DNA of 64,000 nucleotides from Komagataeibacter swingsii (GTDB lineage: Bacteria; Pseudomonadota; Alphaproteobacteria; Acetobacterales; Acetobacteraceae): positions 1-64,000 of the forward strand of contig NZ_NKUB01000005.1 in NCBI RefSeq assembly GCF_003207895.1, in the 5' to 3' direction. A model generated the notes under the pieces. That model worked only from the letters and a program-made list of their open reading frames with translations. It made no database searches and was not told where the DNA came from. This document shows, piece by piece, positions 455 through 56,554 of the stretch. Position 1 is the first letter of the stretch. Each line of letters opens with the position of its first letter. A program made the translations under genes and the position numbers.

Positions 455-546
455 GAAGTCTGGCCTCCTCCGCCAGTCTTCATCTTGAATCACATCACAT
501 GCCCTTTGGAAATCCTGCGATTCAAGCTATTCGCAGCGTGCTCTAA

Positions 547-708
547 GAGACTGTTTAAAAACAAACCATTGATAAAAAACAATAAAAGTTTTTGGGTGCT
601 GTCTTTTTTCAAAAAGGCGGCGTTCTTTCGAAGCTTTTGCAAAAAGCTTCACCAAAAACTTCCTTTAATTTTAAAGTGCTATCATGAACTGACTTTTCAA
701 GCAGTCTC
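547..708. mobile_element. MITE-like element with terminal inverted repeats
   Basis: A 162-bp segment without a gene. Its ends are imperfect inverted repeats: GAGACTGTTTAAAAA (547-561) against GAGACTGCTTGAAAA read from the other strand (708-694), 13 of 15 positions identical. Both sides are flanked by TAA (544-546 and 709-711), consistent with a 3-bp TNA target duplication as made by some IS5-family elements. Inside it lies repeat copy 1. A non-autonomous derivative of an IS5-like element is the best reading. The right flanking TAA falls inside the 3' end of the glycerate kinase reading frame. Confidence 0.55.
584..662 (+). repeat. Three-way-junction intergenic repeat, copy 1
   Basis: Begins AAAAGTTTTTGGGTGC, ends CACCAAAAACTT, with two inner palindromes. 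The first is degenerate (CTGTCTTTTTT against AAAAAGGCGG); the second is GAAGCTTTTGCAAAAAGCTTC. It shares the upstream flank CATTGATAA with copy 2. It lies inside the 547-708 element. Confidence 0.85.
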
Positions 709-2033
709 TAAACGACCATTACCGCACGGATGTCATTCACGTTGGTCAGGGTGGGGCCGGTCATAACCAGGTCGCCCGTCTGCCGGAACAGCGTGTAGCT
801 GTCATGCGCGCGCAGGCAGGCGCGCGGGTCACACCCCAGCGCGCGGGCGCGGGACAGGGTGGTGGGGGTGATGATGGCGCCGGCCGCGTCCTCGGTCCCG
901 TCAATGCCGTCGCTATCCGCCGCGATCGCCCAGATTCCCTCATGCCCCTGCAGGGTAATGGCCATGGACAGCAGGAATTCCGTATTGCGTCCGCCCCGTC
1001 CCGGCGCGGGCTGGTCGGGGGGGATGGTCACCGTCGTCTCGCCCCCCGACAGCAGCACCGCAGGCCCCGTCACCGGCATGCCATGCTGGCGTGCGGACAG
1101 GGCGATGCCCGCCATGAGCGTGCCCGCGTCGCGGCTTTCCCCCTCCAGCGCGTCGCCAAGGACCAGCGTGGCCAGCCCCAGTTCACGCGCCGTGCGGGCG
1201 GCGGCCTGCAGCGCCATGAACGGCGTGGATAAAAGCGTATAACGGTTGCGTGGGGAAAGCGTGCTGGCGATCGGCGGGCGCATGAGCACGCGCCGCACCG
1301 CATCGGGCACGGTAATGCCGTAATGCGCGATGATGGCGCGGGCGTCGGCCGCGGTGGTGGGATCGGCCACCGTCGGGCCGCTGGCGATGGTCAGCGGATC
1401 ATCGCCCGGCACGTCGCTTATGGCCAGTGTCACCACGCGCGCGGGACCGGCGGCGGCGGCCAGGCCACCCCCCTTGATGGCCGACAGGTGGCGGCGGACC
1501 ATGTTCATGTCGCGTATGCTGGCCCCGGAATGCAGCAGGGCATGGTTGACCGCGCGGATGTCATCCAGCGTCAGGCCATCGGCCGGCAGTTCCAGCAGCG
1601 CCGACCCCCCGCCCGAAATCAGGGCGATGACAAGGTCATCCGGTCCCAGCCCCGCCATTTCGGCCATCATGGCACGCGCCGCGGCCTCGCTCCGGCTGTC
1701 CGGCACGGGGTGGCTGGCTTCCAGCACGCGGATGCGGCGCGTGGGGGCCGTATGGCCGTCACGCGTCACCACGCAGCCCGTCAGGTCCACATCAGGCCAT
1801 GCCTGTTCCAGCGCGGCCGCCATGGATGCGGCGGCCTTGCCCGCGCCCACCACCACGCACCGGCCCTTTGGCCGCTGCGGCAGGTAGCGCGCCAGCACGG
1901 CATCGGGCATGGCGCTGCGGATGGCGGCATCCAGTATGCGCCGCAGGGCCGTGCGCGCACGGCCATCCGTCCAGTCCGTGGCCGTGGTGATGCGTGGTGA
2001 GGCGGAAAACGGGTGGATGGTGGCGTCGTTCAT
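708..2033 (-). CDS. Glycerate 2-kinase (MOFRL family, TtuD/GckA type)
   Basis: Predicted cytoplasmic 441-residue enzyme phosphorylating D-glycerate to 2-phosphoglycerate; older annotations call this family hydroxypyruvate reductase TtuD. The N-terminal DUF4147-type domain shows VVVGAGKAAAS (about residues 60-70) and a glycine-rich ALISGGGSALLELP loop (about 137-150). The C-terminal MOFRL domain contains GRGGRNTEFLLSMA and AADSDGIDGTEDAAGA. Length is normal for the family. It is divergent from coaA across 292 bp and has no obvious operon partner. Its 3' end runs to the edge of the 547-708 element, so the last residues may derive from that insertion. Confidence 0.85.
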   Translation of the reverse strand: MNDATIHPFSASPRITTATDWTDGRARTALRRILDAAIRSAMPDAVLARYLPQRPKGRCVVVGAGKAAASMAAALEQAWPDVDLTGCVVTRDGHTAPTRRIRVLEASHPVPDSRSEAAARAMMAEMAGLGPDDLVIALISGGGSALLELPADGLTLDDIRAVNHALLHSGASIRDMNMVRRHLSAIKGGGLAAAAGPARVVTLAISDVPGDDPLTIASGPTVADPTTAADARAIIAHYGITVPDAVRRVLMRPPIASTLSPRNRYTLLSTPFMALQAAARTARELGLATLVLGDALEGESRDAGTLMAGIALSARQHGMPVTGPAVLLSGGETTVTIPPDQPAPGRGGRNTEFLLSMAITLQGHEGIWAIAADSDGIDGTEDAAGAIITPTTLSRARALGCDPRACLRAHDSYTLFRQTGDLVMTGPTLTNVNDIRAVMVV

Positions 2034-2325: not shown

Positions 2326-3303
2326 ATGGAGAACTGTGTGCTGGACACGTGTCCCGTCACCTCCACGCATCCGCCCCACGGGATGGTGCAGCCTTATCTG
2401 GTCTTTCCACGTCCGGAATGGGCGGCCCTGCGCGCGAATGTGCCCCAGTCGCTGGGGGAGGCGGATATCGCCGCCCTGCGGGGGCATAACGAGCCGGTCT
2501 CGCTGGAAGACATAACCGAGGTCTACCTGCCGCTTTCGCGCCTGCTCAACCTGCATGTCATGGCGACGCGCAGCATGAACAACATGGTCAAGAGCGCCTT
2601 TATCGGCGCGCCGGCGGTGACCATGCCATTCGTGATCGGCATCGCGGGCAGCGTGGGCGTGGGCAAGAGCACGTTCGCCCGCCTGCTGCAGGCGGTGCTG
2701 TCGCGCTGGCCCGACCACCCGAATGTGGCGCTGGTCACGACTGATGGCTTCCTGCATTCCACCCGTGAACTGGAACGGCGTCACCTCATGCACCGCAAGG
2801 GCTTTCCCGAAAGCTATGACCTGCGGCAGATGATTGCCTTCCTCGCCGCGCTGAAGGCGGGGGAGCGTGACCTGAAGGTGCCCGTCTACTCGCACGAAGC
2901 CTATGACATCGTGCCTGACCGCTATCAGGTGATCGACCAGCCCGACATCCTGATATTCGAGGGGCTGAACGTGTTGCAGACCGTATCCGAACAGCCGTTC
3001 ATGGCGTCCGACTTCTTCGATTTTTCCATTTATCTGGATGCCGATACACAGGTGATCGAGGACTGGTACGTAAAACGCTTCCTGTCCCTGCAGTGCACGG
3101 CGTTCCGCAAGCCGACATCCTATTTCCATCATTGCGCCGACCTGACACCCGATGAGGCCGCGCGCATGGCGCATGATATCTGGCGGCGCATCAACCTGCC
3201 CAACCTGCGGCAGAACATCCTGCCCACGCGCGAACGCGCCCGCGTGGTCATGCACAAAAGCGCCAGCCACGCGATCGATACGGTGTGGATGCGCCAGATT
3301 TAA
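2326..3303 (+). CDS. coaA: Type I pantothenate kinase
   Basis: 325 residues. Catalyses ATP-dependent phosphorylation of pantothenate, the first step of coenzyme A synthesis. The Walker A loop GIAGSVGVGKSTFARLL lies at about residues 105-121, followed by TTDGFLH (Mg-binding Asp region) and HRKGFPESYD, all typical of prokaryotic type I CoaA. The ATG at 2326 is preferred over an in-frame upstream start because AAAGGA lies 8-14 nt before it and homologues begin near here. The 3' end is followed after 34 nt by repeat copy 2. CoaA of this class is usually feedback-inhibited by CoA. Confidence 0.93.
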   Translation: MENCVLDTCPVTSTHPPHGMVQPYLVFPRPEWAALRANVPQSLGEADIAALRGHNEPVSLEDITEVYLPLSRLLNLHVMATRSMNNMVKSAFIGAPAVTMPFVIGIAGSVGVGKSTFARLLQAVLSRWPDHPNVALVTTDGFLHSTRELERRHLMHRKGFPESYDLRQMIAFLAALKAGERDLKVPVYSHEAYDIVPDRYQVIDQPDILIFEGLNVLQTVSEQPFMASDFFDFSIYLDADTQVIEDWYVKRFLSLQCTAFRKPTSYFHHCADLTPDEAARMAHDIWRRINLPNLRQNILPTRERARVVMHKSASHAIDTVWMRQI

Positions 3304-3337
3304 TCGCTTATTTCAAAGCAACGCATTGATAATAAAT

Positions 3338-3417
3338 AAAAGTTTTTGGGTGCCGCCTTTTTTCAAAAAGGCGGCGTTCTTTGAAGCTTTTTGAAAAAAG
3401 CTTCACCAAAAACTTTT
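3338..3417 (+). repeat. Three-way-junction intergenic repeat, copy 2 (best-preserved)
   Basis: Outer arms AAAAGTTTTTGG (3338-3349) and CCAAAAACTTTT (3406-3417) are perfectly complementary over 12 bp. Between them sit hairpin A, GCCGCCTTTTT/AAAAAGGCGGC (3352-3375, 11-bp stem), and hairpin B, GAAGCTTTTT/AAAAAGCTTC (3383-3404, 10-bp stem). The folded form is a three-way junction. It separates convergent coaA and the ferritin-like gene. The rest of the 3304-3607 gap holds only a 7-bp stem, CCCCGGT/ACCGGGG, at 3547-3563. Confidence 0.95.
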
Positions 3418-3607
3418 CATGGCTGGCACCGCCTTTGCCCGCGATCGCCATATCGGCCAGCACTTCCCGGTTGCGGGATGACGGATGGGATCGCGTTCGG
3501 TATTGCCGGCCCTGTGGCCGGACGCCGCGCGCGACAATGCCATCCGCCCCGGTCCGACCGGGGTAGGGCGCATGCGGGGCAGGCGGCGGAAAGCGGGCGG
3601 GACAGGG

Positions 3608-16269: not shown

Positions 16270-16290
16270 GGCAAGGGGTGGCCTGAAAGA

Positions 16291-16367
16291 CGTTTTTGGT
16301 GAAGCTTTTTTCAAAAAGCTTCAAAGAACGCCGCCTTTATTGAAAAAAGGCGGTACCCGAAACTTTA
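16291..16367 (-). repeat. Three-way-junction intergenic repeat, copy 3
   Basis: Inverted relative to copy 2. On the plus strand it reads CGTTTTTGGTGAAGC, then hairpin B (GAAGCTTTTT/AAAAAGCTTC), then hairpin A as GCCGCCTTTATTGAAAAAAGGCGG, then CCGAAACTTTA. Outer arms carry a few mismatches. It sits between convergent atp12 and ispDF. Confidence 0.9.
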
Positions 16368-16389
16368 TTTTTCAGGAACCTGCAAACAA

Positions 16390-16422
16390 AAACGGCCCGG
16401 TATCGCACCGGGCCGTTTTTTT
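16390..16422. terminator. Bidirectional Rho-independent terminator
   Basis: Stem ACGGCCCGGT/ACCGGGCCGT with loop ATCGC, preceded by an A-rich run and followed by T7. It can terminate ispDF on the minus strand and read-through from the ATP12 gene on the plus strand. Confidence 0.85.
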
Positions 16423-16435
16423 GCGTCTCAGGCGA

Positions 16436-27843: not shown

Positions 27844-27860
27844 ATCGTTGGCAAAAAAGT

Positions 27861-27941
27861 AAAAGTTTATGGGTGCCGCCTTTTTTCAAAAATGCGGCGT
27901 TTCCTGAAGCTTTTTTGAAAAAAGCGTCACCAAAAACTTTT
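27861..27941 (+). repeat. Three-way-junction intergenic repeat, copy 4
   Basis: AAAAGTTTATGGGTGCC, hairpin A GCCGCCTTTTTTCAAAAATGCGGC (one mismatch), hairpin B GAAGCTTTTTTGAAAAAAGCGTC (one mismatch), then CACCAAAAACTTTT. It fills the space between the convergent phosphatase gene and mazG. Confidence 0.93.
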
Positions 27942-27957
27942 GATGGTTTGTGCGCGT

Positions 27958-29859: not shown

Positions 29860-29943
29860 GCGAGAGTGACGGAACGGTAGACGTAGTCGACTCAAAATCG
29901 ACCGCCGAAAGGCATGGGGGTTCGAATCCCCCCTCTCGCACCA
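29860..29943 (+). tRNA. tRNA-Leu (anticodon CAA)
   Basis: 84 nt including an encoded CCA. Acceptor arms GCGAGAG/CTCTCGC pair fully. Anticodon stem GTCGA/TCGAC with loop CTCAAAA gives anticodon CAA at 29893-29895. T loop TTCGAAT. The length leaves room for only a short variable arm, which is small for a class II leucine tRNA; the identity rests on the anticodon. Confidence 0.93.
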
Positions 29944-33785: not shown

Positions 33786-33798
33786 TTAAAACAGAATA

Positions 33799-33877
33799 GA
33801 AGTTTCTGGGTGCCGCCTTTTTTCAAAAAGGCGGCGTTCCTCGAAGCCTTTTGAAAAAAGCTTCACCAAAAACTTTT
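33799..33877 (+). repeat. Three-way-junction intergenic repeat, copy 5
   Basis: GAAGTTTCTGGGTGCC, perfect hairpin A (GCCGCCTTTTT/AAAAAGGCGGC), slightly altered hairpin B (GAAGCCTTTTGAAAAAAGCTTC), then CACCAAAAACTTTT. Lies between convergent purA and rpoH, immediately before a separate terminator. Confidence 0.93.
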
Positions 33878-33889
33878 CCCAAAGAACAA

Positions 33890-33930
33890 GAAAAAGCCCC
33901 GCAGCGCCAGAAGCGTGCGGGGCTTTTTTT
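33890..33930. terminator. Bidirectional Rho-independent terminator
   Basis: AAAAAGCCCCGCA pairs with TGCGGGGCTTTTT around a 12-nt loop, with A-rich and T-rich flanks. It serves purA (plus) and rpoH (minus). Confidence 0.9.
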
Positions 33931-33951
33931 ATCGGGTATGCCGTCGGGTGG

Positions 33952-36538: not shown

Positions 36539-36614
36539 GTCCCGTTCGTCTAGAGGCCTAGGACACCGCCCTCTCACGGCGGCAACACGGGTTCGAATCC
36601 CGTACGGGACGCCA
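36539..36614 (+). tRNA. tRNA-Glu (anticodon CTC)
   Basis: 76 nt with encoded CCA. Acceptor GTCCCGT/ACGGGAC, anticodon stem CCGCC/GGCGG with loop CTCTCAC giving anticodon CTC, T arm ACGGG/CCCGT with TTCGAAT. Confidence 0.95.
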
Positions 36615-53026: not shown

Positions 53027-53033
53027 AAATCGG

Positions 53034-53112
53034 AAAAGTCTTTGGGTGCCGCTTTTCTTTAAAAAGGCGGCATTTCTCGAAGCTTTTTGAAGAAAGCTCC
53101 ACCAAAAACTTT
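53034..53112 (+). repeat. Three-way-junction intergenic repeat, copy 6
   Basis: AAAAGTCTTTGGGTGCC, hairpin A with a few changes (GCCGCTTTTCTTTAAAAAGGCGGC), hairpin B GAAGCTTTTTGAAGAAAGCTCC, then CACCAAAAACTTT. Lies between co-directional nudix and htpG, beginning 7 nt after the nudix stop. Confidence 0.9.
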
Positions 53113-53285
53113 CCCTGGTTACAGGATGTTTCCCGGGCTGGTTTCTCAAATGGCTTTTTACAGGCGGAATTCCGAAACGGTCTCGAAGTATCCCTGCACG
53201 CAGGCCATTGAAAACGCCGCGAAGATTTCCATATCCATTACAAATTGAAACCAGACGGCATTTTCATAGACATGAAGGACCGGCC

Positions 53286-55172: not shown

Positions 55173-55194
55173 ACTGCCTGAGTGCGGAAGTCAT

Positions 55195-55236
55195 CTGCCC
55201 CGCCATGCATGCCGCATGGCGGGGCAGTGCTGTTTT
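55195..55236 (+). terminator. Terminator-like hairpin after htpG
   Basis: Perfect 14-bp stem CTGCCCCGCCATGC/GCATGGCGGGGCAG with loop ATGCC, followed by TGCTGTTTTG. The T-tract is weak, but the stem is very stable. Repeat copy 7 lies just beyond. Confidence 0.75.
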
Positions 55237-55245
55237 GAAGCGAAA

Positions 55246-55314
55246 AAAAGTTTTTGGTGAAGCTTTTTGCAAAAAGCTTCGAAAGAACGCCGACTTTCTT
55301 AAAAAATGCGGCTC
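55246..55314 (-). repeat. Three-way-junction intergenic repeat, copy 7 (one arm decayed)
   Basis: Plus strand reads AAAAGTTTTTGGTGAAGC, hairpin B GAAGCTTTTTGCAAAAAGCTTC, then a decayed hairpin A (GCCGACTTTCTTAAAAAATGCGGC) and no recognisable far arm. Inverted relative to copy 2, between convergent htpG and the methyltransferase gene. Confidence 0.85.
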
Positions 55315-55327
55315 CTGGACATTCCTG

Positions 55328-56113
55328 TTATTTTCTCTTGGCTGGTTTCGTTGCCACAAGAATAAGCATGGGCGGCCGCCGTACTGTATCCTCCAGGTCA
55401 GGTCGCGCCTGCAGCACTTCGGCAGGCGGGCAGGGTTCTGCCAGATGGCGGAGTTGGAAGCCACGGTCGAGAAGCGTGTTGACGTAGGTTTCCATCGTGC
55501 GGTGGTATTTGATCATCCCATCGACAAACCATGACGTGCTGCGCGCGCCCTGCTGCTGGTAGTGGTCGAGTGGCCAGTGCAGCCTGTTGCCATCCGCATC
55601 ACGGACCCACCCCACGGGGTGGGCGGTCTGGACCGGATGCTCGACAGAAAAAACGAAGGTGCCACCGGGTTTCAAACTATCGAAAACGCGCTGCACCACA
55701 GCCGGGTAATCCGCGATGTAGTGCAGGGCAAGGGACGAAACCGTAAGGTCGAAGGCCGCCGGTGCCGTAGTACAGTCCTCGATGGAAGCGTGTCGGTAGG
55801 TAATGGCCGGATCATCTGTCAGCGCGCGTGCGGCGTCGATCATGTTTGCCGATACATCCAGCGCGATAACCTGCTCCGCACCCTGTGCGCGGGCGTAGCG
55901 GGCAAAATCGCCAAACCCGCATCCCAGGTCGAGTACGGCCTTGCCGCGCAGGTCGGGCAGCAGGCGGCGCATGGCCGGGATTTCCAGTGCACCGTTCAGT
56001 CCCGTGTCATTTTCACGAAGGGTGCGGTACCCTTCAAAAAAACGCGGATCGTCATAAATGTTCTGCGGTGATGGGGCCGGCGCCGTGGTATGGTTTTCGT
56101 GTGGTGATGGCAT
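55328..56113 (-). CDS. SAM-dependent methyltransferase (class I) under an FMN riboswitch
   Basis: 261 residues. SAM-binding motif I VLDLGCGFGDFARYARAQG (about 59-77), motif II VIALDVSANMIDAARAL, then DLTVSSLALHYIADYPAVV and SLKPGGTFVFSVEHPV, the pattern of small-molecule Methyltransf_11/25 enzymes. The substrate is not evident. ATG 56113 has AAGGAAG 9 nt upstream (56123-56129). The mRNA leader contains an FMN riboswitch and a stem that can occlude this ribosome site. No other gene lies between riboswitch and start. Convergent with htpG. Confidence 0.85.
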   Translation of the reverse strand: MPSPHENHTTAPAPSPQNIYDDPRFFEGYRTLRENDTGLNGALEIPAMRRLLPDLRGKAVLDLGCGFGDFARYARAQGAEQVIALDVSANMIDAARALTDDPAITYRHASIEDCTTAPAAFDLTVSSLALHYIADYPAVVQRVFDSLKPGGTFVFSVEHPVQTAHPVGWVRDADGNRLHWPLDHYQQQGARSTSWFVDGMIKYHRTMETYVNTLLDRGFQLRHLAEPCPPAEVLQARPDLEDTVRRPPMLILVATKPAKRK

Positions 56114-56153: not shown

Positions 56154-56200
56154 CGATAACGGGCGCGCACGGACCGCCCATTCGGGCCGTGCGACCGCCA

Positions 56201-56346
56201 GTTCTCTTTTATCCGGACTGTAACCGTCGGCTCTGGTTTCTCACCAGATCTGCTGACCCCGGTGGCATAAGGCATGCCAGGCGCTCGCGGGCTTCAGGCC
56301 GTGCGCCTGTTACCGCCGGTAGGGACTTTCACCCCGCCCTGAGAAC
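56201..56346 (-). ncRNA. FMN riboswitch (RFN element)
   Basis: Minus-strand RNA carries the RFN consensus in order: GTTCTCAGGGCGGGGTG (P1 5' arm 56346-56341), AAAGTCCCTACCGGCGGTAA, AGCCCGCGAGCGCC, GGGTCAGCAGATCTGGTGAG, CCAGAGCCGACGGTTACAG, TCCGGATAAAAGAGAAC (P1 3' arm 56206-56201). P1 pairs GTTCTC with GAGAAC. All conserved junction motifs are present. It normally senses FMN in leaders of riboflavin genes; here it leads into the methyltransferase 87 nt downstream. Confidence 0.95.
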
Positions 56347-56554
56347 ACTGACGCGCAGGATAAGGGGTGTACCGCAATGGCGGCAAGTCTGTGGAGGTAT
56401 CCCTGATCCGGTTGTATGATGGAAAGGCGCGGCAAGGGGCCAGACCTGCCGGAATAAAGGCGTATGGCAGATCGGGGCTTGAATAACGGCCTGCCGGATG
56501 TTTCCCTACGCTCCCTTTTGTGTGTTCTGGTTTTTCGATGGCGGCAAGTATTAT

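Follow-up and report, generated by a model that had tools for sequence, protein, structure and literature searches.

It has long been asked whether a host makes use of its REP-like repeats or only tolerates them, and the question is raised by an element of about 80 nt that recurs at gene ends in Komagataeibacter swingsii. The element was analysed in a window of 64,000 nt (64 kb) at the start of contig C69, in a genome of 3.73 Mb and 113 contigs. An initial annotation, made from the letters of the window, had named seven copies in both orientations, and all seven were found at those places. A covariance model built from 35 copies was used to score them, both in the window and in a sample of five contigs or contig pieces, taken contiguously and amounting to 1.17 Mb in all. 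The core copies of the window, and the parts of the copy from which the question arose, were as follows.

581..663, + strand: core copy 1, covariance-model match of 89.4 bits, inside an intact MITE
3335..3417, + strand: core copy 2, the element in question, model match of 113.2 bits, the top score of the 1.17-Mb sample
3338-3349 and 3406-3417, + strand: outer arms of copy 2, pairing
3352-3375, + strand: hairpin A of copy 2, pairing
3376-3382, + strand: U-rich linker of copy 2
3383-3404, + strand: hairpin B of copy 2, pairing
3319..3331, - strand: exact match, beside copy 2 in its left flank, to the IHF consensus
16288..16371, - strand: core copy 3, 79.2 bits, convergent junction 16270-16435
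27858..27941, + strand: core copy 4, 88.8 bits, convergent junction 27844-27957
33795..33877, + strand: core copy 5, 103.5 bits, purA-rpoH convergent junction 33786-33951
53031..53113, + strand: core copy 6, 81.9 bits, co-directional junction 53027-53285, 4 nt past the upstream stop
55246..55329, - strand: core copy 7, 65.8 bits, convergent junction 55173-55327, outer stem lost

The consensus of the copies consists of two separate hairpins, A (GCCGCCTTTT..AAAAGGCGGC) and B (GAAGCTTTT..AAAAGCTTC), enclosed by outer arms (AAAAGTTTTTGG/CCAAAAACTTTT). This architecture had been ascribed to the element as a whole; it was recovered in the consensus and in the best single-sequence folds of copies 1, 2, 3 and 6 (584, 3338, 16291 and 53034), whereas the best fold of copies 4 and 5 (27861 and 33799) was an alternative long hairpin and copy 7 (55246) has no outer stem. 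Six of the seven window copies were more stable than their shuffled versions (z -3.1 to -6.1), and copy 7, without its outer stem, folded no better than shuffles (z -1.3). The best model E-value, 1.9e-34, together with the 103 copies counted in the 1.17 Mb, indicated that the repeat is not a product of chance. In addition, Rfam 15 gave three gathering matches in the window, none of them at a copy, and a relaxed Rfam search of 3290-3460 returned only eukaryotic families, all under their cut-offs. The window also contains an FMN riboswitch (56197-56350, - strand) and two tRNA genes (29860-29940 and 36539-36611).

The placement of the copies relative to genes was evaluated using a home-made dicodon caller, which called 994 genes with a coding fraction of 0.86-0.90. 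By these gene calls the window has seven convergent pairs, of which five, with gaps of 114-304 nt, hold one copy each; the two copy-free pairs have a 26-nt gap and a 26-nt overlap, respectively. The repeat had been said to occupy every roomy convergent junction, which is correct for the window (5/5) but too strong for the genome sample, where gaps of at least 90 nt were occupied in 55 of 88 convergent cases (62%), 30 of 266 co-directional cases and 7 of 141 divergent cases. The model search of the sample yielded 197 matches at E ≤1; opposite-strand duplicates were merged and weak places (E >0.01) were dropped, leaving a census of 103 copies at E <0.01, into which 13 weak matches were entered by hand. 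This density, one copy per 11.4 kb, extrapolates to about 330 copies per genome, and a model search of the whole genome found at least 150.

None of the 103 copies of the sample lay inside a called gene, and one, at a contig end, was outside any junction. The other 102 were distributed over 64 convergent, 30 co-directional and 8 divergent junctions, against 16.8, 50.5 and 34.7 expected from space alone. The preference for convergent junctions, first seen in the window, was confirmed by 10,000 random intergenic placements, none of which brought more than 31 copies into convergent junctions. Furthermore, in 100 loci of other acetic acid bacteria, picked by an exact 34-mer and including 18 orthologous places, 109 copies were found, 68 of them convergent, 31 co-directional, 1 divergent and 9 at locus edges, and no called gene contained one. 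Close to the upstream stop, co-directional copies were mostly oriented with hairpin A first, by 17:4 within 50 nt in this genome and by 18:6 within 60 nt in the relatives (pooled p 0.0002, from data that are not fully independent because some of the relatives' copies may be one old insertion). At convergent junctions an orientation rule was sought and none was found (27:26, with 11 ties).

The flanks of the cores revealed a longer unit, with a left end GAGRCTGTTTGAAAAC..TTGATAAAAAACAATAAAAG and a right end ..GACTTTTCAAACAGTCTC; a second right-end type was present among the copies. The intact unit is a MITE of about 162 bp with 15-bp TIRs and was found in 12 of the 103 copies, copy 1 of the window (584) among them.

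547..708, + strand: intact MITE of about 162 bp, one mismatch per TIR
547-561: left TIR GAGACTGTTTAAAAA, with the right TIR TTTTCAAGCAGTCTC ending at 708
544..546 and 709-711: target duplication TAA, left and right

When TIRs were called at up to 4 mismatches in 15, they were present on both sides of 12 copies, on one side of 17 and on neither side of 74, and a single one of 131 control intergenic places gave a call; most copies are therefore without transposon ends. Exact 3-bp target duplications flanked 7 of the 12 intact copies (TGA, TTA, CAA, TAA, TTA, TAA and TGA), so that six had a TNA duplication, one had CAA and five had no exact duplication. The 1.17-Mb sample contained 29 TIRs with no more than one mismatch, and 27 of these had a core lying inwards of them; the core is therefore part of the transposon. 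Moreover, alignment revealed filled and empty sites between species, two loci of relatives (L128 and L141) carrying a copy where this genome has about 20 nt. The repeat is thus of mobile origin, and it has the features of a MITE, being short, non-coding and multi-copy, with TIRs and a target duplication. Copy 1 lies at the 3' end of the gene at 708-2033 (- strand) and adjoins a weakly called transposase remnant of IS630 type. The stop codon of this gene (708-710) is made of the last right-end base of the MITE and two duplication bases, so that the insertion determined where this reading frame now ends.

The suggestion of a REP-like mobile unit was borne out as far as mobility is concerned (TIRs, duplications and empty sites), but the unit is not of the RAYT-driven kind: the Y1 (RAYT) transposase PF01797 had no match in this genome and was present in 5 of 14 control genomes. 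The IS1031 group of the IS5 family, first known from Acetobacter xylinum, makes 3-bp TNA target duplications, and the mostly TNA duplications of the MITE resemble this type. The likeness concerns the duplication, and a search of the loci examined and of the 1.17 Mb found no transposase gene between the TIRs of the MITE and no autonomous partner. A three-nucleotide target is described as a common feature of the IS1031 group (PMC2516522).

The fate of the core was then compared with that of the transposon ends, and the contrast was clear. Identity to the consensus in left flank/core/right flank was 0.89/0.92/0.90 in copies with both TIRs, 0.68/0.87/0.65 in copies with one TIR and 0.53/0.83/0.52 in the 74 copies with none, against 0.45/0.47/0.48 for random intergenic sequence, the core values being inflated because copies were found by their core. 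The 55 copies without any flank trace still had a mean core identity of 0.81. That the folded core was kept while the transposon ends decayed suggests that the cell now ends or protects messages with the repeat.

Selection of copies by their core was avoided at two junctions, purA-rpoH and hisN-mazG, since these loci were picked through the neighbouring protein instead of the repeat; 19 genomes of the genus were covered, with this one among them. At purA-rpoH a copy was present in 19/19 genomes (18/18 others), mostly 8-9 nt past the purA stop, and at hisN-mazG (window copy 4) in 16/19 (15/18 others), one of these copies being internally deleted and matching at E 0.03 only. By comparison, the purA loci of 29 other Acetobacteraceae genera had no copy. 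Mean pairwise identity was calculated from 15 of the 19 purA copies (four damaged ones excluded) and from 15 full-length hisN copies. The core was more conserved than its surroundings at both places: at purA it reached 0.80, the next 40 nt 0.62 (shuffled 0.56) and purA third codon positions 0.76, and at hisN the corresponding values were 0.84, 0.67 (shuffled 0.57) and 0.68.

The paired structure was assessed in the same copies. Across the 19 purA copies, hairpin A was paired in 98.4% of cells and four pairs were altered on both sides, in agreement with the compensating structure that the initial annotation had claimed for this hairpin. The whole-structure covariation score at purA (0.145) was reached by 0/500 shuffles and by no slid version; two of the five covariation measures were unremarkable against shuffles, namely the count of pairs changed on both sides (reached by 50/500) and the number of pair types (456/500), and the score at hisN was weaker (33/500). 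In the four damaged purA copies, hairpin A was kept in 4/4, and hairpin B was mostly lost in three and broken in one. Two other genomes (loci L285 and L287) carry at purA-rpoH an additional partial match, which runs the opposite way and lies on that side of the ordinary terminator which faces rpoH; both genes there thus have a copy on their own strand.

These data bear on the reading that the repeat is a purely selfish MITE, which would have inserted widely and survived mainly in convergent gaps because it is least harmful there, its core looking conserved because new insertions recur or copies convert one another. Such an element would have TIRs and duplications, leave empty sites and be patchily present across acetic acid bacteria, as is the case here. 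In addition, the convergent share was 15/29 for TIR-bearing and 49/73 for core-only copies, a difference that is not significant (p 0.18); because TIR-bearing copies already show this share, the placement alone needs no selection for function. However, the reading is hard to reconcile with the core identity held by the 55 copies without a flank trace, and at purA-rpoH the copy is present in every one of the 19 species and shows compensatory variants that differ by lineage, not a homogenised sequence. We therefore regard the purely selfish explanation as unlikely.

The reading that we prefer, with a probability of roughly 55%, is that of a MITE from which selection has retained the core as an RNA element of gene 3' ends, one that probably helps termination or shields mRNA ends. 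A MITE of about 162 bp would have spread through acetic acid bacteria, and copies just behind genes would have been retained because the core, once transcribed, folds into hairpins that would work as a 3'-end element, composed of hairpin A with the U-rich linker and of the outer stem with the final U tract. The core would most likely help to stop RNA polymerase, or else protect the mRNA end, and in convergent junctions it could serve both strands. That the repeat works at the RNA level, and that selection favours it for termination or 3' protection, is our inference. The 8 nt after hairpin A contained 4.0 T on the A-first strand versus 0.26 on the other, and hairpin A, whose motif was found in 69 of 103 copies, had a mean of -13.6 kcal/mol in these.

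Of the roles first put forward, terminator or 3'-end barrier, a 3'-end role draws support from where the copies lie, from their biased orientation and from the conservation of the core, but a strict terminator rule fits few copies: a GC hairpin plus T tract placed a terminator inside the copy at 5/110 convergent and 4/30 co-directional gene ends. Mutual exclusion with ordinary terminators was not seen, these being present at 23/110 convergent gene ends with a copy versus 7/66 without, and purA-rpoH has an ordinary terminator besides the copy. A strand test comparing G-T with A-C mismatches in 90 of the 103 copies was contradictory, with 54:21 for hairpin A and 49:135 for the outer arms. The weak strict-terminator fit, the coexisting terminators and the contradictory mismatch test count against the 3'-end RNA reading, as do the even split of orientations at convergent junctions, the two unremarkable covariation measures at purA, the weaker hisN score and a placement explicable without selection. 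If the 3'-end RNA reading holds, the repeat is a countable case of mobile DNA becoming gene-end parts, with copies numbering about 330 by extrapolation and some holding constant places throughout the genus. Moreover, the orthologous copies, the empty sites and a flipped copy make the question of host use testable in industrial cellulose producers.

The flipped copy was found at hisN-mazG, where the core is inverted in one genome (G455) relative to its sister G458 (support 99) and to the rest of the clade (L304 vs L308), and the sequence on both sides of the inverted core matches that of G458. A flip between the core's own arms would be the simplest reading of this alignment. Three more genomes, from one clade, are inverted at this junction, with flanks that have diverged enough to allow a new insertion, and a further opposite-orientation pair at one junction is formed by this genome and L115. 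Hairpin-bounded small inversions are described in chloroplast DNA (PMC6824564); as with the core, the sequence between inverted arms flips between related species, but the chloroplast inversions described there flip a short loop, whereas here the 80-bp core of a bacterial repeat flips.

The hairpins are also landing sites of an IS. The PF13340 transposase had 23 matches in this genome, including an IS with GGGCCTGTTGGG ends.

L213, L214, L215 and L219-L223 (e.g. C58:127451-128270): copies of the GGGCCTGTTGGG IS, with PF13340 and DDE transposase pieces

In these 8 copies, all 10 ends that were read (10/10) lay in hairpin loop A or B of the repeat. Two copies could be read at both ends; one of them fits a 2-bp TG duplication and the other has none. 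Such IS ends were absent from the other loci examined. REP sequences are described as targets of IS elements, the IS5 family included (PMC1525189), and the GGGCCTGTTGGG IS is therefore a further case and not a new principle. An IS in hairpin loops may also serve as a natural probe of hairpin formation in vivo.

The inversion has to be weighed for a DNA-level element as well, that is, a cruciform, IHF or gyrase site managing supercoiling between convergent genes, since it points to pairing or recombination of the arms at the level of DNA. The convergent preference would suit such an element, and the IHF consensus was matched exactly in 23/103 left flanks (shuffled mean 0.1). Stop codons were considered as an explanation of the TTGATAA in this flank and proved insufficient, because conservation extends to the distal YAA of the IHF consensus. 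The motif was exact in 10/12 intact copies but in only 7/74 core-only copies; it is thus lost with the transposon ends, and an IHF site as a host-selected function was rejected. The nucleoid role raised at the outset retains a weak hint from this motif. Furthermore, the orientation bias of co-directional copies towards the upstream gene is not needed by a symmetric DNA site, making a DNA-level element improbable. A stabiliser of mRNA 3' ends only, as which E. coli REP sequences act, with transcripts ending elsewhere and hairpins blocking exonucleases, would fit copies a few nt past stops, the stable hairpin A and the ordinary terminators beside copies at some junctions, but it is very improbable, given that stabilising alone does not predict the convergent excess over co-directional gaps and that the U-rich run following hairpin A on one of the strands resembles a termination signal.

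Compared with known systems, the repeat resembles the REP/BIME sequences of enterobacteria and pseudomonads as these are commonly described, both being extragenic palindromes in many copies, gene-downstream and IS-targeted. GTAG/CGTC REPs are described as lying mostly downstream of genes, between convergent or co-directional ORFs, and as probably transcribed (PMC3733652). Unlike REP/BIME, the repeat is an 83-nt two-hairpin core in a TIR-bounded MITE with 3-bp duplications and no RAYT gene, and the GTAG or CGTC end tag on a 20-40-nt palindrome was absent from the core consensus. Correia elements of Neisseria have TA as target duplication. They are described as MITEs with an IHF site (PMC10969869), and share with the repeat an intergenic position, a similar length and an IHF-consensus motif within the mobile unit; they belong to another host group, however, and it is the repeat that loses its ends and keeps an inner two-hairpin core at gene 3' ends. 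SPRITE of Streptococcus pneumoniae is described as rho-independent-terminator-like (PMC10969869). SPRITE, RUP and BOX of this species are small and intergenic like the repeat, but differ from it in sequence and host, and no genus-wide orthologous retention appears in the account of them in PMC10969869. A literature search by topic and by arm sequences, over accessible main texts, found no described family matching the repeat.

The taxonomic range of the repeat was determined using exact patterns. Among the matches listed, the 34-mer occurred in Komagataeibacter, Novacetimonas, Gluconacetobacter entanii, some Acetobacter and Gluconobacter, and in four Bacteroidota MAGs (two Tidjanibacter, one Alistipes and one Rikenellaceae). 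A hairpin-B-plus-arm pattern, counted in 18 genomes bearing the 34-mer, gave 163 matches in G. entanii, 144 in N. maltaceti, 56 in A. garciniae, 3 or 4 in three Gluconobacter, and 50, 3 and 9 in three Bacteroidota MAGs. In one genome from each of 45 Acetobacteraceae genera, the arm pattern was found 79 times here, as single chance-like matches in three genera and not at all in 41. A stricter arm pattern had no match in 397 other Pseudomonadota genomes, five of them from the same family. None of 50,697 phage records matched, and the six matches among 72,556 plasmid records were all from Komagataeibacter or Novacetimonas.

Taken jointly, these observations leave room for a wider reading, possible yet doubtful as a whole, of a domesticated invertible 3'-end cassette. 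The MITE would have seeded the genus with bidirectional transcript-end elements, selection would keep the core and discard the transposon, and the core would flip between its own arms; the IS would land in the hairpin loops, and the architecture would also exist in gut Bacteroidota, in up to dozens of copies. If true, this would make the repeat a travelling terminator shared between phyla.

The Bacteroidota repeat itself may reflect either transfer or convergence. The Tidjanibacter copies have the same order as those here (left arm, T/A-loop hairpin, hairpin B and right arm), but their hairpin A differs and their DNA composition is unlike that of this genome. Around 12 Bacteroidota copies, crudely called ORFs showed no clear pattern of placement, with 5 divergent, 3 convergent, 3 co-directional and 1 not classed. 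Loci from gut Bacteroidota MAGs (e.g. L032, L065, L105 and L126) share hairpin B and the right arm, and two further Bacteroidota copies (L094 and L095) lie directly past an apparent stop codon.
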